Part shown: positions 1,464 to 13,212 of the stretch, piece by piece
Layout: each line of letters starts with the position of its first letter
Numbering within the stretch: position 1 is the stretch's first letter
DNA from: Dokdonella fugitiva
GTDB taxonomy: Bacteria; Pseudomonadota; Gammaproteobacteria; Xanthomonadales; Rhodanobacteraceae
NCBI RefSeq assembly: GCF_014138265.1
Contig: NZ_JACGXL010000002.1
Coordinates: 434,001 to 498,000, forward strand
Reading direction: 5' to 3'
Length of the DNA: 64,000 nt
The notes under the pieces: model-generated
Seen by the model: the letters and a program-made list of their open reading frames with translations, nothing else
What the model was told of the DNA's origin: nothing
Databases searched by the model: none
Position numbers and translations under genes: made by a program

Positions 1464-2245
1464 GCGAGCACCTCGATCGCGAGCGCGGTACCGCGGCCGG
1501 CCGGCAGGCGCAGCCGCGCCGAATGGCCGTGCGCGAGCGCCCCGAACAGCGGCAGCAGTGCCACGCCGAACCACGCGCCGCGTGCCTCCGGCACGTCCGC
1601 ACCGTCGCCGTCGCCGTCGTGGCGCAGGCGCAGCGCGGCGACGGTGCGCGCGCCGCGTTCCGGGCTCAGCACGAAGGCGACGCCGTGGCTCGCCTCGGCG
1701 CGCATCGTCTCGGCGAGTGCGCCGCGCGCGCCGGCGTCGTAGGCGGCGAACAGCGTCGACGTGCCGTTCGCGTGCGCTTCGGCGGCGGCTTCGAACAGGC
1801 CCACGGCGAAGCTCGCGCCGGATGCCGACAGCGCGTTCGAGGCGGCGTGGCACTGCGTGGCGACGGTCCAGTAACCGGTCGCCGCGTTGAGCACGGAGTT
1901 GTGGAACTTGGTCGGCGAGAGTTCGAGCGGATTCGCGGCGAGCGTCATGCAGAGATGTTCGGTGATCGCGATGTCGCCATGCATCGAGGCGAACACGCAG
2001 GGAAGTTGCGCCGGTTCGGACGCAGCCATCGCGCAGGCCTGGCCGGCGACGTCGCAGGCGAGCAGTACGGTGTCGGGCGCGCGACGGCGCTCGTTCGGCG
2101 GCAGCAGTGCCGGGCTCGCACCGCTCGCGCCGATCAGCGCGGGCGCGCCGCCGTCGCGCAGCAACGCACGCGCGGCGTCCCAGTCGGCGAGGCCGGGCGA
2201 GCGCCAGCCGATGCCGTCTACGTGCACGGTCAGCACGCCGTTCAT
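1460..2245 (-). CDS. Beta-ketoacyl synthase-like chain-length-factor protein (aryl polyene type)
   Basis: A 261-residue protein resembling the N-terminal half of a ketoacyl synthase (the ketoacyl-synt_2-like family found in aryl-polyene clusters). It has the patterns SPTKFHNSVLNAATGYW and TQCHAASNAL but no canonical active-site Cys-His-His set. It probably pairs with the complete ketosynthase encoded immediately upstream to set polyene chain length, as in other aryl-polyene systems. ATGA overlaps on both sides place it in the middle of one operon. Family recognition is good; the partner role is inference from context. Confidence 0.8.
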   Translation of the reverse strand: MNGVLTVHVDGIGWRSPGLADWDAARALLRDGGAPALIGASGASPALLPPNERRRAPDTVLLACDVAGQACAMAASEPAQLPCVFASMHGDIAITEHLCMTLAANPLELSPTKFHNSVLNAATGYWTVATQCHAASNALSASGASFAVGLFEAAAEAHANGTSTLFAAYDAGARGALAETMRAEASHGVAFVLSPERGARTVAALRLRHDGDGDGADVPEARGAWFGVALLPLFGALAHGHSARLRLPAGRGTALAIEVLA

Positions 2246-3429
2246 GCGGCGCACCCGAACGCGAGCGTGCAGTTGTTGCCGCCGAACCCGAACGAGTTGC
2301 TCAGCGCGACGCGCACGGCGCGCTCCTCGTTGGCGAGCGCGAGTCGCGCGTCGCAGAGCGGATCGCGCGTGTCGGTGTTGAGCGTGCCCGGCACGAAGCC
2401 GTGCTCGATCGCGAGCAGGGTGATCACCGCCTCGAGGATGCCGGCCGCGCCGAGCGTGTGGCCGGTCCAGCCCTTGGTCGAGCTCGCGCGCGTCGTCGGC
2501 GGGAAACTGTCGGCGAGCAGCGCGGCCTCGACCTCGTCGTTCTTCACGGTCGCGGTGCCGTGCAGGTTCACGTAGTCGACCTCGTGCGCGCCGACGCCCG
2601 CGCGCGCGAACGCGTCGGCGAGCGCGAGGCGTGCGCCGAGGCCGTGCGGATGCGGCGTCGACATGTGGTGCGCATCGGACGACTCGCCGTAGCCGAGCAG
2701 GCGCGGCGCGCCCGCGCCGTCGCGTTCGAGCAGGGCGAAGCCGGCGGCCTCGCCGATCGAGATGCCGCGCCGCGCGACGTCGAACGGCCTGCACGCCTCG
2801 GGCGCGACGAGTTCGAGCGCGTTGAAGCCGAACAGGACGCTGCCGCAGAGCGTGTCGACGCCGGCGAGGATCGCCGCGTCGACGATGCCGAGGCGGATCA
2901 GGCGTTCGCCCTGCGCGAAGATCTTCGCGCTCGACGAGCACGCCGTCGCGATCGTCGAGCACGGACCGCGCGTGCCGAGCACGTGCTCGAGGAACAGGCC
3001 GAGCGAGTGCGGCGTGTGCAGTGCGGGCGAGGCGAAGGCCGGCGCGAAGCGGCCGTCCTCGAGCGCGAGATGCGCCTGCTCGGTCGAACCGATGCTCGCG
3101 GTCGACGTGCCGACGAGCAGCGCGACGCGGCTCGCCCCATGGCGGTCGATCGCGGCGCGCGCGGCGTCGAGGAAGCCGTCCGCGCCCAGGCCGAGCCAGG
3201 CGAGGCGATTGTTGCGGCTGTCGTGCTCGGCGAACTCGGCCGGCAACGGCTGCGCCTCGAGGCCGTCGACGCGACCGATCGCACAGGCGAGCGGCGCCGC
3301 CGTGAAATCGTTGTCGCGCAGGCCCGTGCGCCGGTCGCGCAACGCCTCGACGTGTGCGCGGCGTCCGCGGCCGAGCGCGGACGTGGCGGTGTACGCGGTG
3401 ATGGCGAGCGGCGGGATGCGGCTGGGCAC
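2242..3429 (-). CDS. Beta-ketoacyl-ACP synthase (aryl polyene/xanthomonadin type)
   Basis: A 395-residue condensing enzyme with all catalytic residues visible: Cys164 in TACSSSAK, His290 in NLHGTATVKNDEVEA, Lys319 and His324 in KGWTGHTLGAAG, and a Gly-rich end SNSFGFGGNN. It condenses malonyl-ACP with a growing acyl chain. Followed by a chain-length-factor-like protein and a glycosyltransferase, it looks like the edge of an aryl-polyene pigment cluster rather than primary fatty-acid synthesis. Start is a GTG (rendered Met) with only a weak upstream ribosome site. It is divergent from hemF, with 114 bp between them. A FabF-like primary-metabolism role is the alternative but fits the neighbours poorly. 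Confidence 0.85.
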   Translation of the reverse strand: MPSRIPPLAITAYTATSALGRGRRAHVEALRDRRTGLRDNDFTAAPLACAIGRVDGLEAQPLPAEFAEHDSRNNRLAWLGLGADGFLDAARAAIDRHGASRVALLVGTSTASIGSTEQAHLALEDGRFAPAFASPALHTPHSLGLFLEHVLGTRGPCSTIATACSSSAKIFAQGERLIRLGIVDAAILAGVDTLCGSVLFGFNALELVAPEACRPFDVARRGISIGEAAGFALLERDGAGAPRLLGYGESSDAHHMSTPHPHGLGARLALADAFARAGVGAHEVDYVNLHGTATVKNDEVEAALLADSFPPTTRASSTKGWTGHTLGAAGILEAVITLLAIEHGFVPGTLNTDTRDPLCDARLALANEERAVRVALSNSFGFGGNNCTLAFGCAA

Positions 3430-5107: not shown

Positions 5108-7867
5108 TCAGCCGGACAGGCCGAGCAGGCCCGCGGTGCGCTCGGCCGCGGCGCGGCTGATCTCCTGCGGCAGCATCGCCGCGCGCAACGCCGGCAGCGC
5201 GGCGACGAGCAGCGTGCGCGCCTCGGTGCGGTCGCCCGCGCGCAGGCGCACGGCGGCGAGCTCGCTGCGCGCGATCGACAGGTCGATCGGCTGCGCGCCC
5301 GCGGCTTCGAATCCGTTCACCGCGGCGCGCAGCTCGCGTTCGGCGCCGGCGAGGTCGCCGCGGTCGAGCGCGAACGCGGCGCGCGCGCGCCGCATGTGCA
5401 GGAAGATCGGATGCTCGGCCGGCGCGAGGCCGTGCCAGCGCCGCTCCGCCTCGTCGAGCAGTGGCAATCCGGTGTCGGGCCGATGCATGTTGCGCGCGAG
5501 CACGACCAGTTGCCAGGTCAGCATCGCGTACTCGCCCGAATCCTCGCCGTCGATGCGCGCGGCGCGCCCGCGCAGGTCGGTGAGGCGTTCGAGCGCGCGT
5601 GCGTGCTCGCCGGCGAGGCCGAGCGTGCGCGCCTGCTCGCGCTCGATGCGCCGGCGCACCTGGTGGTCGGCGCCGATGGCGGCGCCGTCGAGCAGCGCGA
5701 ACGCGTTGTCGTAGTGGACGAGCGCGACCGCGTAGTCGCCCGCGTTCTCGAGCACCGCGGCGAGGTTGCCTTCGGAGATCGCGCGATCCGCCGCGCCGTC
5801 GATGCCGGCGCCGGTCATGTGGCGGTCCGACTCGCGCAGCAGGTCGGCCGCCTCGCGGTAGCGGCCGAGGTCGTTGACCGCGATCGCGAGGTCGTTGGTG
5901 AGTTCCATCATGCGCGAGCCGCCCGGATCGACCACGCGCTGCTGCAGCGCAATCGCCTCGCGCAACAGGCGTTCGGACTCGGCGGCATCGCCGCCGGCGC
6001 TCTTCGCGTTCGCCTTCGCGCGCAGCAGCAGCACGTGTTCGGGCGATTCCTTCGGCCGCAGCGCGTCGACGCGCGCGAGGCTTTCTTCGGCGATCGCCAG
6101 CGAGGCGTCGGCGTCGCCCGCGGTCGCGAGCAGCGCGGCGAGTGCCTGCGCGATGTTCGTGTACAGATCGAGCGGCATCCCCGGCAGCGCCTTCGCTTCG
6201 GCCATCGCCTCGCGCAGCAGGGCGATCGCGCGCTCGTCGTCGCCGCTGCGATGATGCACGAGGGCGAGCGACTGGCGGCTGCGCAGCTGTTCGACGCGAT
6301 CGTCGGGCGCGAACTGCGCGCGCCAGTCCGCCGCGCGCTGCGCCGCCGCGAGCGCCTCGCCGACGTCGCCCTTGATGCCGAGCTGGCTCGCGTACTCGTC
6401 GTAGTCCTCGGCGAGGCGCAGGGCTTCGGCGCGATCCGCCGGCGCGGCGTCGCGCACGCCCTCGCGCATGAGCTGCAGGCCGGTGCGGATGTCGCCGAGG
6501 TCGCCGTAGAGGTGCGCGAGCAGGCGCTGCATCGGCCGCACGAGCGCGGGATCGCTGCGCTGCTCGAGCTTCGCGCGGGCGGCGTCGAGCAGGTCGCGCA
6601 CGCTGACCTCGCGGCTCATCGCGACGTCCGGCGCGGCGGCCGCGATCGCGTCGCTGAGGAAATCGAGCGACGCACGCGCGCGGCTCGCCTCGCGTTCGGC
6701 CGCGACCAGTGCCTGCTGCGCCGATGCCTCGGCCGCGCGTGCGCGCGTGCGCTCGCGCTCGAGCCGCCAGACGAACGCGGCCGCGACCAGCACGGCGAGC
6801 GACGCGGCGACGAAACCGACGCGATGGCGCGCGACGAACTTGCGCAGCCGATAGCCGTGCGTCCAGCGCGCGGCACGCACCGGACGCCCCTCGCGATGGC
6901 GGCGCAGATCGTCGCGGAACTCGCTCGCGCTCGCGTAGCGATGCGCGGGATCGGGCTCGGTCGCCTTGGCGAGGATGCCGCGCAGGTCGGCATCGAGGCG
7001 CAGCGGCGCGATCGGCGACGCGCGCACGTCGGTCGCGTCGCGGCGGCCCTCGAGCATTTCGCGCAGCAGCACGCCGAGGCTGTAGATGTCGCTCGCGGTG
7101 GTGATGGCCCGGCCCTGTTCCTGCTCGGGGCTCGCGTAGCCGCGGCTGAACACGCGCGTCGAAGTCTCGCGCTGAGATTCCTCGCCGGCTTCCACGAGGC
7201 GCGCGATGCCGAAGTCGAGCAGCTTGACCGTGCCGTCGGTGGCGACCATCACGTTGGCGGGCTTGATGTCGCGATGCACGACGAGGTGGCTGTGCGCGTG
7301 CGCGACCGCGTCGAGCATCGCCTCGAACAGCGCGAGGCGGTCGCGCAACGCCGGCGCGTGCGTCGCAACGTGCTCGAGCAGCGGCACGCCGTCGACGTAT
7401 TCGAGCGCGAGCCACGGCTGCCCTTCCGCGGTCTCGCCGCCGTCGAGCAGGCGCGCGATGTTCGGGTGGTCGAGGCCGGCGAGGATCTGACGCTCCTGGC
7501 GCAGGCGCCGCGTCGCGTCGCGGGTCGGGAAACCGCGCAGCAACTTGACCGCGACGGCCCGCTCGAACTGGCCGTCGGCGCGTTCGGCGAGGAACACGGT
7601 GCCCATGCCGCCGGCCCCGAGTTCGCGCACGAGGCGCCACGCGCCGAACTCGCGCGGGCCCTCGCCGTGCAGGCGCGCGGCACCGTGCGCGATCGCCTCC
7701 GCGAGCGGGTCGCCGTCGGCGGCGTCGGCCGCGAGCAGGCGCTCGAGGCGCGCGCGCGAGGCGGGATCGAGCGACAGCCTGGCGATCTCCTCCGCGCGCT
7801 GCGCCGGATCGAGCGTGCGCAGGCGCTCGAAATGCGGCGCGAGCGTGTCGAGCGTCGACGCGCTCAT
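5108..7867 (-). CDS. Membrane Ser/Thr protein kinase with TPR sensor half
   Basis: A 919-residue Hanks-type kinase. The kinase domain spans about 75-330: glycine loop LGAGGMGTVF, Lys108, HRDIKPANV (catalytic Asp200), DFG at 218-220 and YASPEQ. One membrane helix follows at about 350-368, then about 550 residues of TPR-like helical repeats with a short coiled stretch. The ATG overlaps the stop of the ECF sigma gene (ATGA), so the two are coupled. This sigma-kinase layout is common in Xanthomonadales, where the kinase is thought to control the sigma factor. A paralogous pair lies at 12643-16192. Substrates are unknown. The start at 7867 was preferred over an in-frame start at 7891 because of the overlap. 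Confidence 0.9.
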   Translation of the reverse strand: MSASTLDTLAPHFERLRTLDPAQRAEEIARLSLDPASRARLERLLAADAADGDPLAEAIAHGAARLHGEGPREFGAWRLVRELGAGGMGTVFLAERADGQFERAVAVKLLRGFPTRDATRRLRQERQILAGLDHPNIARLLDGGETAEGQPWLALEYVDGVPLLEHVATHAPALRDRLALFEAMLDAVAHAHSHLVVHRDIKPANVMVATDGTVKLLDFGIARLVEAGEESQRETSTRVFSRGYASPEQEQGRAITTASDIYSLGVLLREMLEGRRDATDVRASPIAPLRLDADLRGILAKATEPDPAHRYASASEFRDDLRRHREGRPVRAARWTHGYRLRKFVARHRVGFVAASLAVLVAAAFVWRLERERTRARAAEASAQQALVAAEREASRARASLDFLSDAIAAAAPDVAMSREVSVRDLLDAARAKLEQRSDPALVRPMQRLLAHLYGDLGDIRTGLQLMREGVRDAAPADRAEALRLAEDYDEYASQLGIKGDVGEALAAAQRAADWRAQFAPDDRVEQLRSRQSLALVHHRSGDDERAIALLREAMAEAKALPGMPLDLYTNIAQALAALLATAGDADASLAIAEESLARVDALRPKESPEHVLLLRAKANAKSAGGDAAESERLLREAIALQQRVVDPGGSRMMELTNDLAIAVNDLGRYREAADLLRESDRHMTGAGIDGAADRAISEGNLAAVLENAGDYAVALVHYDNAFALLDGAAIGADHQVRRRIEREQARTLGLAGEHARALERLTDLRGRAARIDGEDSGEYAMLTWQLVVLARNMHRPDTGLPLLDEAERRWHGLAPAEHPIFLHMRRARAAFALDRGDLAGAERELRAAVNGFEAAGAQPIDLSIARSELAAVRLRAGDRTEARTLLVAALPALRAAMLPQEISRAAAERTAGLLGLSG

Positions 7868-8430
7868 GCTTCCAGCGCGCTGCGCAGCCATGCGCGCGCG
7901 AGGCGCAGGTCGCGATCGACCGTTCCCTCCGACACCTGCAGCGCCTGAGCGACCTCGATCCGGCTGAGGCCGCCGAAGTAGACGAGCTCGATCATCTGCG
8001 CGCGCCGCGCGTCGCTCTGCTGCAGGTCGCGCAGCGCGTCGTCGATGCGCACCAGCTCGGTGTCGCCGTCGTTCGCGGCGACGCCGAGCGCGGCGTCGAG
8101 TTCGACTTTCTCGGCGCCGCCGCCGCGCTTGGACGCGAGGCGCTGGCGCGCGGCGTCGACGAGGATCTGCCGCGTCGCCTGCGCGGCGACGTGGAAGAAG
8201 TGACGCCGATCGCTCCAGGCAGCGTCGGTGCCGAGCAGGCGGATCAGCGCCTCGTGCGCGAGGTCGGTCGCGCTCAGGGTCGCGCCGGGCATCTGCCGCA
8301 GCGACTGCGCCGCGATCGCGCGCACGTTGGCGTAGACGCGTTCGACCAGCGCCTCGCGCGCGCCTTCGTCGCCGCTGCGCCAGGCGGCGATGAGGCGGGT
8401 GACGTCGTGGTCGCCGGGGCCGTCGTTCAT
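7864..8430 (-). CDS. ECF-type RNA polymerase sigma factor (TIGR02999-like)
   Basis: A 188-residue sigma factor. Region 2 includes HEALIRLL and HFFHVAAQATRQILVDAAR. Region 4 ends with YFGGLSRIEVAQALQVSEGTVDRDLRLARAWL, a helix-turn-helix. The sequence resembles the group of ECF factors (model TIGR02999) that are encoded directly upstream of TPR-linked Ser/Thr kinases instead of with an anti-sigma factor. No anti-sigma gene is present. The first gene of a two-gene operon, it is divergent from a secreted-protein gene at 8501 with 70 bp between, making that gene a candidate target. Confidence 0.9.
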   Translation of the reverse strand: MNDGPGDHDVTRLIAAWRSGDEGAREALVERVYANVRAIAAQSLRQMPGATLSATDLAHEALIRLLGTDAAWSDRRHFFHVAAQATRQILVDAARQRLASKRGGGAEKVELDAALGVAANDGDTELVRIDDALRDLQQSDARRAQMIELVYFGGLSRIEVAQALQVSEGTVDRDLRLARAWLRSALEA

Positions 8431-8500
8431 GCTGCGTCGCCGTTGGGATTTTCGTGGCGGTTCTTCGTAACAGTCATCGAACCGTCCTCGGAGCCATCCC

Positions 8501-9274
8501 ATGATCATACGTCCTCGACACGGTCTGCAGACTGCGGCGTGGTTCGCGCTCGCACTGTCGACCGCCGCGCTCGCGCAGGCGCCCGCGCCGCCGTCGCCGG
8601 CGGGTCCGCTGACCTTGCCCGGTCCGGATCTGGTGACGCCCTGGTACAACGGTGCGTTCACGAGCATCGGCACCGTCCAGTACTGCCTCAGCGATCCGCC
8701 GATCTTCGCGACGCGCGTGATGGGCTACACGGGGTTCAGCCACCCGCCGCCGGACTTCTCGCCGGCGGTCGGCGAAGTGTTCTACACACACCTCGTGCTC
8801 GGCCATCCCGGCAATCCCTGCACCGGCAGTGCGGTCGGCATCGAGTTGATCCTGCCGCCGGGCATGCAGACCGCCGTTTCGGCCGACAACCCGGTGTTCT
8901 GCTTCTCGATGGTGCCCAACCCTTCCAATCACCTCATCGACCTCGACACCGACGCCGATTACGGCTGCCCGACGACGTTCCCGCAGGGGCTGGAAGGGCT
9001 GGCGGTGCGGCCGTTGCGCGGTGGCCTGGGCAACAGCGGCGCGTGGGGCATGGCGATGGGGTTCTATCTGGAAATCCTCATCCCGGTGCGCGCGACGCAG
9101 GTGCAGCTGGGCAACCAGTCGATCGCCTGGCGCGTGAACCCCGACGTCGGCGTGGTCGGTTATCCGCAGGTGCCGGTGTTCGCCAACGGCGACGTGGTCT
9201 TCCGCGACCAGATGGAGAACACGCTGCTCAACCTCGACCTGTGCACGCTCGATCCGCTGCCGCAGGGCTGTTGA
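8501..9274 (+). CDS. Secreted protein of unknown function
   Basis: A 257-residue protein with a Sec signal peptide (residues 1 to about 25, ending AALAQA) and no membrane helix in the mature part. Cys residues (YCLSDPP, NPCTGS, CFSM, YGCP, DLC, QGC) suggest disulfides in the periplasm or outside the cell. GGAG lies 8 bp before the ATG. I do not recognise the family. Near the C-terminus it carries GDVVFRDQMEN, a degenerate relative of the IF-x-x-GFE tail seen in three other secreted proteins of this window. Divergent from the ECF sigma gene, so it may belong to that regulon. Confidence 0.7.
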   Translation: MIIRPRHGLQTAAWFALALSTAALAQAPAPPSPAGPLTLPGPDLVTPWYNGAFTSIGTVQYCLSDPPIFATRVMGYTGFSHPPPDFSPAVGEVFYTHLVLGHPGNPCTGSAVGIELILPPGMQTAVSADNPVFCFSMVPNPSNHLIDLDTDADYGCPTTFPQGLEGLAVRPLRGGLGNSGAWGMAMGFYLEILIPVRATQVQLGNQSIAWRVNPDVGVVGYPQVPVFANGDVVFRDQMENTLLNLDLCTLDPLPQGC

Positions 9275-9357: not shown

Positions 9358-12135
9358 ATGCCGCCACGCCTCGTACTCATCGACGGTTCGTCGTACCTCT
9401 ACCGTGCGTTCCACGCGCTGCCGCCGCTGACCAACGCGGCCGGCGAGCCGACCGGCGCGCTGTTCGGCGTCGTCAACATGCTGCGCACGATCCTCAAGCA
9501 GCGGCCCGACTACGCCGCGTTCGTCGCCGACGCGCCCGGGCGCACGTTCCGCGACGACCTCTACGCCGAATACAAGGCGAACCGCCAGGCGATGCCCGAC
9601 GACCTCGTCGCGCAGGTCGAGCCGATGCTCGCGATCGTCGGCGCGCTCGGTTTCCCGATCCTGCGCGTAGACGGCGTCGAGGCCGACGACGTGATCGGCA
9701 CGCTCGCGCGGCGCGCGAACGCGGACGGCATCGACGTCACGATCTCCACCGGCGACAAGGATTTCGCGCAGCTGGTCGTGCCCGGCATCGAACTCGTCAA
9801 CACGATGACGAACACGACGCTCGACGCCGCCGCGGTGATGGAGAAGTTCGGCGTGCGGCCGGAGCAGATCGTCGACTACCTCGCGCTCATGGGCGACAGC
9901 GTCGACAACATCCCCGGCGTGGAGAAGTGCGGACCGAAGACCGCGGCCAAATGGCTGGCCGAGTACGGCAGCCTCGACGGCGTGATCGCGCACGCGGCCG
10001 AGGTCGGTGGCAAGATCGGCGAGAACCTGCGCAAGGCGCTGCCGCAGTTGCCGCTGTCGCGCCAGCTCGCGACGATCCGCACCGACGTGCCGCTCGCCGA
10101 AGGCCCGCGCGACCTGCATCTGCGCGAGCGCGACGCCGACACGCTGCGCACGCTCTATCGCCGCTACGAATTCAACGCGGCGTTGAAGGAACTCGACGCC
10201 GGCAGCGAGCCCGTCGCGCGCGCCGCGCCCGATCTGCCCGCGGCCGAGCTGCCGCAACGGCGCGAATTCGGCGTGCGCGGGATTTCGCCGCCACCGGCAC
10301 CGAGCACGGATCCGCAACTGACGGGGCCCGGCCACTACGAACTCGTCATGACCGAGGCCCAGCTCGACGCCTGGCTCGCGAAGCTCGCCGCGGCCGACCT
10401 CGTCGCGTTCGACAGCGAGACCGATTCACTCGATCCGATGCAGGCGCGCATCGTCGGCGTGTCGATCGCGGCGTCGCCGCGCGAGGGCGCCTACATCCCG
10501 CTCGCGCACGACTACCCCGGCGCGCCCGCGCAACTCGACGCCGCGCACGTGCTCGCGCGCCTCAAGCCGCTGCTCGAGGACGCGACGCGGCCGAAGGTCG
10601 GCCAGCACGCGAAGTACGACATCAACGTGCTGTCGACGCACGGCGTCGCCTTGCGCGGCGTCGCGCACGACACCATGCTCGAATCGTACGTGCTCAATTC
10701 CACCGGGTCGCGGCACGACATGGACACGCTCGCGCGGCGGCACCTCGGTTACGAGACCGTGCCGTACGAACAGGTGACCGGGCGCGGCGCGAAGCAGATC
10801 CCGTTCTCGCAGGTCGACCTCGACACCGCGTGCCGCTACGCCGCCGAGGACGCCGACGTGACCCTGCGCCTGCATCGCGCGTTGTGGCCCAAGCTCGAAG
10901 CCGAGCCGGGCCTGCGCACGGTGTACGAGACGATCGAGATGCCGCTCGTGCCGGTGCTCGCGCGCATGGAACAGCGCGGCGTGCTGATCGACGTCGCGGC
11001 GCTCAAGCGGCAGAGCCACGAGCTCGCGCGGCGCATGCACGAGATCAACGAGCGCGCGCACGCGATCGCCGGTCGCAGCTTCAGCCTCGACTCGCCCAAG
11101 CAGCTGCAGGCGATGCTGTTCGACGAACTGAAACTGCCCGCGCTGATGAAGACGCCGAGCGGGCAGCCGTCGACGAACGAGGAGGCGCTCGAGGCGATCG
11201 CCGACCAGCACGAACTGCCGCGCCTGATCCTCGACTACCGCGGCCTCGCCAAGCTGCGCTCGACCTACACCGAGAAGCTCGCCGACAACGTCAATCCGCG
11301 CACCGGCCGCGTGCACACGAGCTACAACCAGGCGACCGCGGCGACCGGCCGGCTGTCGTCGGTCGAGCCGAACCTGCAGAACATCCCGATCCGCACCGAG
11401 GAAGGGCGGCGCATCCGCCAGGCATTCGTCGCGCCGCCGGGCTGGAAGGTCGTCGCCGCCGACTATTCGCAGATCGAGCTGCGCATCATGGCGCACCTGT
11501 CCGGCGATCCGGGCCTGCTCGCCGCGTTCCACGGCAACCAGGACGTGCATCGCGCGACCGCGGCGGAAGTGTTCGGCCTGCCGCTCGAGCAGGTCGACGG
11601 CAACCAGCGTCGCGCGGCGAAGGCGATCAACTTCGGCCTCATGTACGGCATGAGCGCGTTCGGGCTCGCGCGCCAGCTCGGTGTCGGTCGTGGCGAGGCG
11701 CAGGACTACATGGCGCGCTACTTCTCCCGCTACCCGGGCGTGCGCGACTTCATGGAGCGCGTGCGCGAGCAGGCGCACCGCGACGGTTACGTCGAGACCG
11801 TGTTCGGTCGCCGCCTCCACCTCGACTACATCCACTCGCGCAACGCGGCGCAGCGCGCGGGAGCCGAGCGCGCCGCGATCAACGCGCCGATGCAGGGCAC
11901 CGCGGCCGACATCATCAAGCGCGCGATGATCACGGTCGACGCCTGGCTGCTCGAGCGCCAGGACGCCGCGCACATGCTCATGCAGGTGCACGACGAACTC
12001 GTGTTCGAGGTGCGCGAGGACGCGGTCGAGGCGATCGTCGCCGGCGTGCGCGAGCGCATGGCCGGTGCGGTCGAACTCGATGTCCCGCTCGTGGTCGATG
12101 TCGGCGTCGGCGCGAACTGGGACGAAGCGCACTGA
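9358..12135 (+). CDS. polA: DNA polymerase I
   Basis: A 925-residue three-domain polymerase I for Okazaki-fragment processing and repair. The 5'-3' exonuclease domain is at 1 to about 300 (LIDGSSYLYRAFHA, EADDVIGTLA, STGDKDFAQLV, GDSVDNIPGV). The proofreading domain keeps its catalytic acids (Asp352 and Glu354 in FDSETDS, KYDINVL, YAAEDADV). The polymerase domain has AADYSQIELRIMAH near 701, RRAAKAINFGLMYG and QVHDELVFEV near 878. Length matches the family. The ATG at 9358 is the only start consistent with the conserved N-terminus. Flanked by two sigma/kinase cassettes and followed by a small RNA candidate. Confidence 0.98.
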   Translation: MPPRLVLIDGSSYLYRAFHALPPLTNAAGEPTGALFGVVNMLRTILKQRPDYAAFVADAPGRTFRDDLYAEYKANRQAMPDDLVAQVEPMLAIVGALGFPILRVDGVEADDVIGTLARRANADGIDVTISTGDKDFAQLVVPGIELVNTMTNTTLDAAAVMEKFGVRPEQIVDYLALMGDSVDNIPGVEKCGPKTAAKWLAEYGSLDGVIAHAAEVGGKIGENLRKALPQLPLSRQLATIRTDVPLAEGPRDLHLRERDADTLRTLYRRYEFNAALKELDAGSEPVARAAPDLPAAELPQRREFGVRGISPPPAPSTDPQLTGPGHYELVMTEAQLDAWLAKLAAADLVAFDSETDSLDPMQARIVGVSIAASPREGAYIPLAHDYPGAPAQLDAAHVLARLKPLLEDATRPKVGQHAKYDINVLSTHGVALRGVAHDTMLESYVLNSTGSRHDMDTLARRHLGYETVPYEQVTGRGAKQIPFSQVDLDTACRYAAEDADVTLRLHRALWPKLEAEPGLRTVYETIEMPLVPVLARMEQRGVLIDVAALKRQSHELARRMHEINERAHAIAGRSFSLDSPKQLQAMLFDELKLPALMKTPSGQPSTNEEALEAIADQHELPRLILDYRGLAKLRSTYTEKLADNVNPRTGRVHTSYNQATAATGRLSSVEPNLQNIPIRTEEGRRIRQAFVAPPGWKVVAADYSQIELRIMAHLSGDPGLLAAFHGNQDVHRATAAEVFGLPLEQVDGNQRRAAKAINFGLMYGMSAFGLARQLGVGRGEAQDYMARYFSRYPGVRDFMERVREQAHRDGYVETVFGRRLHLDYIHSRNAAQRAGAERAAINAPMQGTAADIIKRAMITVDAWLLERQDAAHMLMQVHDELVFEVREDAVEAIVAGVRERMAGAVELDVPLVVDVGVGANWDEAH

Positions 12136-12259
12136 GGCGCGGAAAGGGCGCGTCCGCGCCCATATAGGCCATTCGTCATGCCCGCGCCGAAGCATGAATG
12201 CCCGCTAAACGGGACCGAAAGCGGGCTGGAAACTTTCGCACCGAATCCCGATCTATCTT

Positions 12260-12386
12260 TCCGGGTGCACGCAACGGCACCCCCGGTTGGCTCACCTCCC
12301 TGAGTGCAACCCGCGAAGCCCGATCCCTCCCCAGATCGGCCTTCCCCGCCCCGAGGGCTCCCCCTGGCCCTCGGGGCTTTTCTTTT
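12260..12386 (+). ncRNA. Candidate small regulatory RNA with C-rich hairpin loops (sX13-like, downstream of polA)
   Basis: About 125 nt beginning 125 bp after polA fold on paper into successive hairpins and end in a strong intrinsic terminator. Hairpin 12286-12310 (GTTG..CTCA/TGAG..CAAC) has loop CCTCCC. Hairpin 12320-12339 (CCGATC/GATCGG) has loop CCTCCCCA. The terminator hairpin 12348-12377 has loop TCCCCCTG. An additional imperfect stem lies at 12261-12286. C-rich loops facing G-rich ribosome sites are the hallmark of sX13 of Xanthomonas. As far as I recall, Spot 42 of E. coli and sX13 occupy this same post-polA site. A possible -10 (TATCTT, 12254-12259) would give a start near 12266. There is no open reading frame of note. 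Identification is structural inference. Confidence 0.6.
12348..12386 (+). terminator. Rho-independent terminator of the small RNA candidate
   Basis: Perfect 11-bp inverted repeat GCCCCGAGGGC (12348-12358) and GCCCTCGGGGC (12367-12377) with an 8-nt C-rich loop, followed by TTTTCTTTT. This is the strongest terminator in the window. It lies 212 bp past polA, too far to be needed for polA alone. Confidence 0.9.
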
Positions 12387-12642
12387 GTGCGTTCGTCCGT
12401 GAACGCTGCGATCTGGCAGGTCCTTCCGAGCACCCGTACGGGTCGGCTTCGGATGGTCCAGAGCGGCCATCCATGGCCGCACTCCTCAAATGAAGCATGC
12501 TTCGATCGAAAGGCGCGAGTTGCATCTCGTCGGCCGACGCGTTCGGGCGAAGCGCGCTTGCGGGAGGGACATTCCCTGAACGGGATCATCGGCGCAGGGC
12601 TTGCACCTATACTGACTGCAGGGTGTTTGCCGGGATAGGGGC

Positions 12643-13212
12643 ATGGCCGGGGATGTCACCGCGCTCATCGAGGCTGCCAGCGGCGGAGGGGACGCTTGCG
12701 CGTTGCAGGCGTTGTTCGAGCGCGTCTACGACGAACTGAAGGTGCTCGCCCGGCGGCAGCTCGCGAGTTCGGGCTCGTCGACCCTGAACACCACGGCGCT
12801 CGTCCACGAGGCCTACGTCAAGCTCGCCGGGTCGCGCGAGCGCGAACTGCACGGGCGTGCGCATTTCTTCGCGCTCACCGCCAAGGCGATGCGGCAGATC
12901 GTCATCGATCACGCACGCGCACGGGCGACCGAGAAGCGCGGCGGCCATCCGGCCAACATCCTCGAACTCGATGCGGCAGCCGACGTCATCGCCGGCGAAA
13001 TGCCTGCGGACGAGCTGTTGCGGCTCGACCGCGCGCTGACCTTGCTCGAAAGCGAGGAGCCGCGCCTGGCGAAGCTGGTGGAGCTGCGCTTCTTCGGCGG
13101 CCTCGGCATCGCCGAGATATCCCTGCTGCAGGCGATCAGCCCGCGCACCCTGAATCGCGACTGGCGGCGCGCGAAGGCGCACCTCTACGTCCACATGCAC
13201 CCCGACGTATGA
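12643..13212 (+). CDS. ECF-type RNA polymerase sigma factor (TIGR02999-like), second copy
   Basis: A 189-residue sigma factor clearly paralogous to the one at 7864-8430: TALVHEAYVKLAG, HFFALTAKAMRQIVIDHARA in region 2, and ELRFFGGLGIAEISLLQAISPRTLNRDWRRAKAHL in region 4. AGGGG lies just before the ATG and a TATACT hexamer at 12608-12613 may be its -10. No anti-sigma gene follows; instead a TPR-kinase gene starts 82 bp downstream. The region 12387-12642 before it contains no gene that I can recognise. Confidence 0.9.
   Translation: MAGDVTALIEAASGGGDACALQALFERVYDELKVLARRQLASSGSSTLNTTALVHEAYVKLAGSRERELHGRAHFFALTAKAMRQIVIDHARARATEKRGGHPANILELDAAADVIAGEMPADELLRLDRALTLLESEEPRLAKLVELRFFGGLGIAEISLLQAISPRTLNRDWRRAKAHLYVHMHPDV

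Follow-up and report, generated by a model that had tools for sequence, protein, structure and literature searches.

RESULTS

A cluster of hairpins downstream of polA

The window, by which we mean the whole 64-kb stretch of DNA that was analyzed, contains polA (DNA polymerase I), an anchor gene identified from its open reading frame and translation at positions 9358 to 12135 of the plus strand. Among named sequences, the polA of D. fugitiva A3 is the closest, with 94% identity in the best segment. Genes read from their translations as ECF-type sigma factors flank the region on both sides (7864 to 8673 and 12643 to 13212), and the second of these is followed by a Ser/Thr kinase-like gene. The original prediction placed three consecutive hairpins in the gap after polA, the last of them a terminator with a T-tract, and this is where we found them, all on the plus strand: HP1 (12285 to 12311; loop CCUCCC) and HP2 (12315 to 12344; loop CCUCCCCA), both identified by fold, covariation, and loop conservation, and HP3 (12348 to 12377; loop CCCCCU), identified by fold, covariation, and a terminator prediction that calls it along with its T-tract, TTTTCTTTT (12378 to 12386). 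The HP3 stem had been described as 11 bp and perfect. It does hold 11 Watson-Crick pairs, and one extra U-G pair brings the stem to 12. There are four consecutive C's in loop 2, five in loop 3, and no run of four in loop 1; the loop and stem of HP1 read UCACCUCC, a sequence that also occurs at the 3' end of 16S rRNA. Covariation marks another hairpin, HP0 (12263 to 12283, plus strand), with a conserved CGCAACG loop. From a match to the Rfam sX13 family, a match to our own model, and a start inferred from the promoter motif and HP0, we assign a putative sX13-type small RNA to positions 12262 to 12386 of the plus strand, with a predicted transcript of about 122 to 125 nt.

The fold of this region is unusually stable. 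A 146-nt stretch had a folding energy of -66.2 kcal/mol (z = -5.6), and none of 200 dinucleotide shuffles did as well. When folded singly, HP2 and HP3 were better than all 200 shuffles and HP1 was better than 198 of 200; the HP0 stretch was unremarkable, with 65 of 200 shuffles as good. A hairpin scan of the 64-kb window counted 35 hairpins with C-rich loops on the plus strand and 39 on the minus strand, and a triplet of such hairpins within 130 nt was found at a single place on either strand, the sX13 site. No such triplet was found in eight Markov resamplings of the plus strand. We ruled out a coding region, given that the RNA contains no ATG and that indels and compensating changes occur among relatives.

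Matches of the RNA to the sX13 family

The Rfam sX13 model (RF02232) matched positions 12273 to 12383 over its full length (49.3 bits, E = 3.4e-8, 701 bases searched), starting 137 nt past the polA stop codon. The score falls 0.7 bits short of the 50-bit cut-off; at curated Rfam thresholds the window yields tRNA alone, and sX13 appears once the threshold is lowered. In a search of the whole genome, the site was the sole strong match (E = 5.5e-8). Among 61 relative genomes, 46 had a match at an E value of at most 0.01 and 22 passed the cut-off; the 22 include 14 of the genus's other 15 genomes. In 200 genomes of the order, the corresponding numbers were 75 matches and 37 passes. Most loci recovered in these first sX13 searches carry polA (89 of 110, counting weak and second hits).

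We also trained a covariance model, R1, on 16 sequences from the window's own genus and family, with no Xanthomonas sequence among them. R1 detected the sX13-type RNA at 77 of the 80 named polA loci, including those of Xanthomonas; 74 of the hits had E values below 1e-10, and 6 of the 77 loci had also contributed to the model. No R1 match was found at the remaining three polA loci (L134, L144, and L183). For Xanthomonas sX13 itself, E values ranged from 6e-17 to 6e-16 at nine named loci and reached 3e-14 at a tenth. Our own model matched positions 12259 to 12388 at 142 bits; the sequence of this RNA is included in that model. Because R1 finds Xanthomonas sX13 at about 1e-16 and the RNA keeps its place behind polA, the window RNA is, as judged from sequence, an sX13 ortholog just below the Rfam line and more than a look-alike, in keeping with its original description as the local sX13 member. 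The same genome holds a further match 3' of a Gly/Tyr/His-rich open reading frame (L192, 1501 to 1632), with C-rich-loop hairpins that score 33.4 bits with R1 and 32.9 bits with Rfam ar7, and another at 19 bits (L002).

Xanthomonas sX13 is reported to be a 115-nt RNA, 175 bp behind polA, with loops of 4C, 4C, and 5C on three stable stem-loops, and to repress mRNAs that carry 4G motifs (PMC3771888). Common to it and the window RNA are the site behind polA, the three C-rich-loop hairpins, the terminator, a similar length, and GGGG at position +9 of hfq. The window RNA differs in its first loop, CCUCCC, which lacks four C's in a row; in its promoter motif, which is clearly of the sigmaE type where that of Xanthomonas has drifted; and in the 5' hairpin recognized here.

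Covariation and loop conservation in relatives

In an alignment of 16 sequences, 15 of 38 base pairs had pair-keeping changes on both sides, and none of the measures was reached in 500 shuffles; this alignment was taken from 26 sequences, with 10 left out and the structure supplied by hand. When RNAalifold was run on a plain MAFFT alignment of the 26 sequences, HP1 did not appear. In an alignment of 87 sequences, double-sided changes were present at 34 of 38 pairs, with 93.9% of cells paired. This alignment, like the one of 33 RNAs described below, was fitted to a model, toward which its pair counts lean, and since the compared sequences are related, the counts are of non-independent events. 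HP0 had double-sided changes at all six of its pairs and 98.4% of its cells paired in the same fitted alignment of 87 sequences, and HP1 aligned poorly.

The loops are C-rich in relatives with few exceptions: L073 and L081 lack a C-rich loop 1, and that of L090 is long. G-T pairs outnumber A-C pairs in HP0 (18 versus 2), HP2 (49 versus 16), and HP3 (57 versus 4), as would be expected of an RNA, but not in HP1, where the counts are 30 versus 38. Both covariation and loop conservation, whose absence would have counted against the original prediction, were thus found in relatives. One relative has an sX13 with an apparent extra hairpin, as read from its sequence, for four C-rich loops altogether (L031, 1455 to 1624).

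A sigmaE-type promoter motif upstream of the RNA

Motif comparison placed a sigmaE-type -35 element, GGAAACTTT, at 12228 to 12236 and a -10 element, TCTATC, at 12252 to 12257 of the plus strand, 5 nt before HP0. Similar motifs recur upstream of sX13, with GGAACTT or near variants separated by a gap of 15 to 16 from TCTAA, TCTAT, or GTCATA, mostly ending 5 to 6 nt before HP0. Our promoter counts cover 86 of the 87 sX13 upstream regions, one being too short, and 27 of 30 rpoE loci. For scoring, we used the sigmaE consensus GGAACTT-N15/16-GTCTAA. Of the 52 regions that are not of the Xanthomonadaceae type, 50 scored at least 10/13 (0.7 expected); of the 34 Xanthomonadaceae-type regions, defined by the presence of TTCACG, 6 did so (0.55 expected). 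The same score was reached in 18 of 27 rpoE upstream regions from the same genomes (0.28 expected). As controls, hfq gave 0 of 23, and stretches 300 to 400 nt behind polA gave 2 of 167 (0.64 expected).

We also scored the upstream regions with a matrix trained on rpoE (24 of 27 regions), for which the rpoE site pattern was picked after inspection of the sX13 upstream regions. The best hit ended 3 to 7 nt short of HP0 in 73 of the 86 regions and had a P value below 0.05 in 63 of 86 (single-base shuffling). A sigma-70 promoter scan found nothing, which fits sigmaE without proving it. Judging from these comparisons, the sX13-type RNA is probably transcribed from a promoter of the sigmaE (RpoE) type.

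It is possible that the RNA is of the sX13 type and that another sigma factor or an activator reads the upstream motif, with no link to envelope stress. With RpoE-profile matches at 19 places in the window's own genome, another ECF factor could be meant, and in Xanthomonas proper the promoter has drifted to GATCCAT..GTGTTATAT. There is also a second conserved tandem site farther upstream. In the window, the pattern is TGAAT-N6-TAAAC (12195 to 12210, plus strand), upstream of the promoter and a possible response-regulator site; TGAAY-N6-TRAAY occurs, at a few fixed positions, in 64 of 86 upstream regions from the Xanthomonadales (0.2 expected) and in 1 of the 27 loci from outside the order. Its 11-bp period is that of sites for OmpR/PhoB-type regulators. 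We nevertheless consider this explanation unlikely, since in these genomes the regions upstream of rpoE have the motif and spacing of the sX13 regions, in 24 of 27 cases by pattern as well as by the consensus count given above, and since ErsA, an RNA of Pseudomonas, is reported to depend on sigma22 (PMC7565897).

Independence from polA

In a comparison locus from D. fugitiva, the promoter and the RNA are inverted together behind polA, which speaks for an autonomous unit. Three loci (L030, L087, and L016) contain sX13-type RNAs with no polA within the stretch examined; a sigmaE-like motif lies directly before HP0 in L030 and L087, and a weak one does so in L016. Inversion recurs in a genome from the class-level search (G461), whose sX13-like RNA begins or ends 156 nt past polA and points the other way.

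The position behind polA, on the same strand and with a strong terminator, could also be that of a polA 3' UTR whose loops are C-rich by chance in a GC-rich genome. We rejected this reading as highly implausible. The covariation and loop conservation, the promoter motif upstream, the inverted copy in D. fugitiva, the copies without polA in the stretch examined, and the absence of any other C-rich-loop triplet from the 64-kb window all argue against it. The original prediction had held the RNA to be independent of any annotated gene, and the RNA's own promoter motif and the inverted promoter-RNA unit support this.

A conserved hairpin at the probable 5' end

HP0 appears to be a fourth hairpin that is absent from the published outline of sX13; the original prediction had named neither it nor the promoter. 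In PMC3771888, the first 14 nt of Xanthomonas sX13 are described as unstructured and dispensable. The sequence AACGCC, with which the Rfam consensus starts, lies 159 to 175 nt past the polA stop codon in nine named Xanthomonas loci and in two others with nearly the same RNA. The start of Xanthomonas sX13 has reportedly been mapped in an earlier study. Judged by distance, the published 5' end seems to fall in the loop of HP0. In L174, the 10 nt that precede AACGCC close a hairpin of 9 bp whose loop is CAA, and their addition changes the folding energy to -71.0 kcal/mol from -57.2 kcal/mol for the shorter RNA. From this closure and the distance of AACGCC to polA, we infer that the primary sX13 transcript is longer than annotated.

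HP0 might instead be a DNA operator across the transcription start and outside the RNA, which would then begin at AACG as in the Xanthomonas annotation. This would agree with the reported lack of structure at the 5' end and with a start inside HP0 both for the Rfam model and, judged by distance, for the published RNA. We regard it as quite unlikely. The HP0 arms diverge widely across lineages yet still pair, and about 5 nt separate the end of the -10 element from HP0. The excess of G-T over A-C in HP0 is also RNA-like, although this test is unclean, since HP1, a sure RNA hairpin, fails to show such an excess.

sX13-like RNAs outside the order

A second covariance model, R2, was built from the 87 sequences. 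At an E value of 0.001, it matched 55 of 274 genomes of the Gammaproteobacteria, 52 of them among the 271 outside the order. In 32 of these 52 genomes, a match was found downstream of polA at a distance of at most 2.5 kb, and in 29 it was on the same strand and within 1 kb; in the remaining 20, either the match was at another site or no position could be assigned to polA. We counted upstream motifs, tandem copies, and covariation at the 27 loci with the highest scores in the 52 genomes. Among these loci, a sigmaE-type motif of at least 10/13 was present in 23 (0.46 expected), the best promoter match ended 4 to 8 nt before HP0 in 24, and the 33 RNAs that they contain had double-sided changes at 36 of 38 pairs in the fitted alignment. 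With filters off, R2 scored at least 28 bits behind polA in 7 of 10 polA loci of the class, and no match was found at the other three (L284, L288, and L289). In a sample of the phylum, 13 of 299 genomes matched; the four outside the class were weak, and none of these had polA in the stretch examined. These searches suggest, from sequence and predicted structure, that the sX13 family is wider than described.

Some of the best 27 loci hold several copies. L258 has four tandem sX13-like RNAs directly behind polA (1501 to 2260, minus strand), and L260, L269, and L271 have two each. One L258 copy scored 48.3 bits with Rfam sX13, and another scored 37.1 bits with Rfam ErsA and 29.8 bits with sX13, all below the cut-offs.

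Part of the window's own family has a second RNA, which carries two C-rich loops and a promoter resembling GAACTC/GAACTT..CTAAG (L105, 1996 to 2126; also L069, L078, L097, L106, and L072). In five of these six loci it lies upstream of a gene that resembles nicotinate phosphoribosyltransferase in translation. A model of this RNA, R3, also finds sX13 at lower scores, and so the second RNA may be a paralog of sX13. R3 matched 28 genomes of the family, in two or more cases at the very locus of sX13, and found no match in the genome of the window.

Relation to ErsA, Spot 42, and other RNAs

ErsA is reported to be a sigma22-dependent RNA of 132 nt in the polA-engB gap, with three stem-loops and a U-rich domain between the first two (PMC7565897, PMC8575079). 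One genome in our set, G383, is a Pseudomonas according to its CrcZ (306.8 bits). It has an Rfam ErsA match of 121.3 bits directly behind polA, with GAACTT..GTCATA upstream, and R2 scored 29.0 bits at this site (E = 1e-4; 10 polA loci, filters off). In the whole-genome search at an E value of 0.001, R2 missed G383 and likewise G538, G542, and G546 of the same family. ErsA/Pseudomon-1 (RF01719) resembles the sX13-type RNA in its polA-linked gap, its reported length, and a similar promoter motif; its reported control by sigma22, a sigmaE homolog, would match the sigmaE-type motif before the window RNA. It differs by the U-rich domain between its first two stem-loops. According to published reports, Hfq is needed for one effect of ErsA, whereas it is dispensable for sX13. 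RF01719 had no match in the window up to an E value of 10. Within a limited collection of literature, available in part, we found no paper with both ErsA and sX13 and a single one with sX13 and RpoE, which does not link the two.

The original prediction had described an RNA at the sX13/Spot 42 position; kinship with Spot 42 found no support. Spot 42 occupies the same gene position, a parallel that PMC3771888 itself draws, along with one to the alphaproteobacterial ar7 RNAs. The E. coli spf gene was also the top-scoring place of R2 in the 4.4 kb of E. coli searched, yet the score was 11.9 bits, with an E value of 0.033 in that stretch alone, and the Spot 42 model (RF00021) had no match in the window up to an E value of 10. 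With gene position shared and no significant match in sequence or structure, we rejected kinship and consider it very unlikely that the window RNA belongs with Spot 42, which is not known to be under sigmaE control. Anti-hemB of Burkholderia (RF02837) and the alphaproteobacterial ar7 and ar14 RNAs (RF02342 and RF02344) gave weak matches to several sX13-type RNAs or second hits, all below the cut-offs.

DISCUSSION

We propose, with a probability of roughly 0.8, that the locus encodes an autonomous ortholog of sX13 whose RpoE-type promoter would respond to envelope stress and whose C-rich loops would block G-rich translation starts. The gene would occupy the gap behind polA and produce an RNA that opens with a 5' hairpin and closes with a terminator hairpin; the two hairpins between them would present C-rich loops resembling anti-Shine-Dalgarno sequences, and the terminator hairpin would add a third C-rich loop. 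Envelope stress would free RpoE and lead to synthesis of the RNA. By analogy with Xanthomonas, the loops may then base-pair with target mRNAs, hfq included, where G-rich segments lie on or close to the start codon, and prevent translation.

The 4G motif of Xanthomonas hfq is reported at +9 (PMC3771888), and hfq of the window's own genome (L212) has GGGG at the same position. We examined 23 of 30 hfq loci, drawn from the window's own family and the Xanthomonadaceae. GGGG was present at +9 in 14, four or more G's were present in the leader in 6 more, and GGGG was absent from the vicinity of the start in the other 3. The +9 site falls on adjacent codons for Lys and Gly.

A broader reading is that sX13, ErsA, and many undescribed RNAs form one ancient gammaproteobacterial family, linked to polA, driven by sigmaE, masking G-rich translation starts, and serving as a counterpart of the enteric envelope-stress RNAs. 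The primary transcript of this family would open with a conserved hairpin that is missing from published sX13 because the annotated 5' end sits in the hairpin loop. We lean toward this reading with some reserve, which reflects the occurrence of the two top L258 scores in different copies and the failure of whole-genome searches to recover the Pseudomonas genome.

sX13 has been described as exclusive to Xanthomonadaceae (PMC3771888). The main text of that paper names no sigma factor for sX13, the word "sigma" appearing once, for RpoS, and it asks whether polA loci elsewhere encode such RNAs. If our interpretation is true, it would answer that question, provide sX13 with a signal, and correct both the sX13 5' end and the Rfam model. 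A single family under a single stress promoter would also link sX13 and ErsA, virulence-related regulators that have been studied separately.
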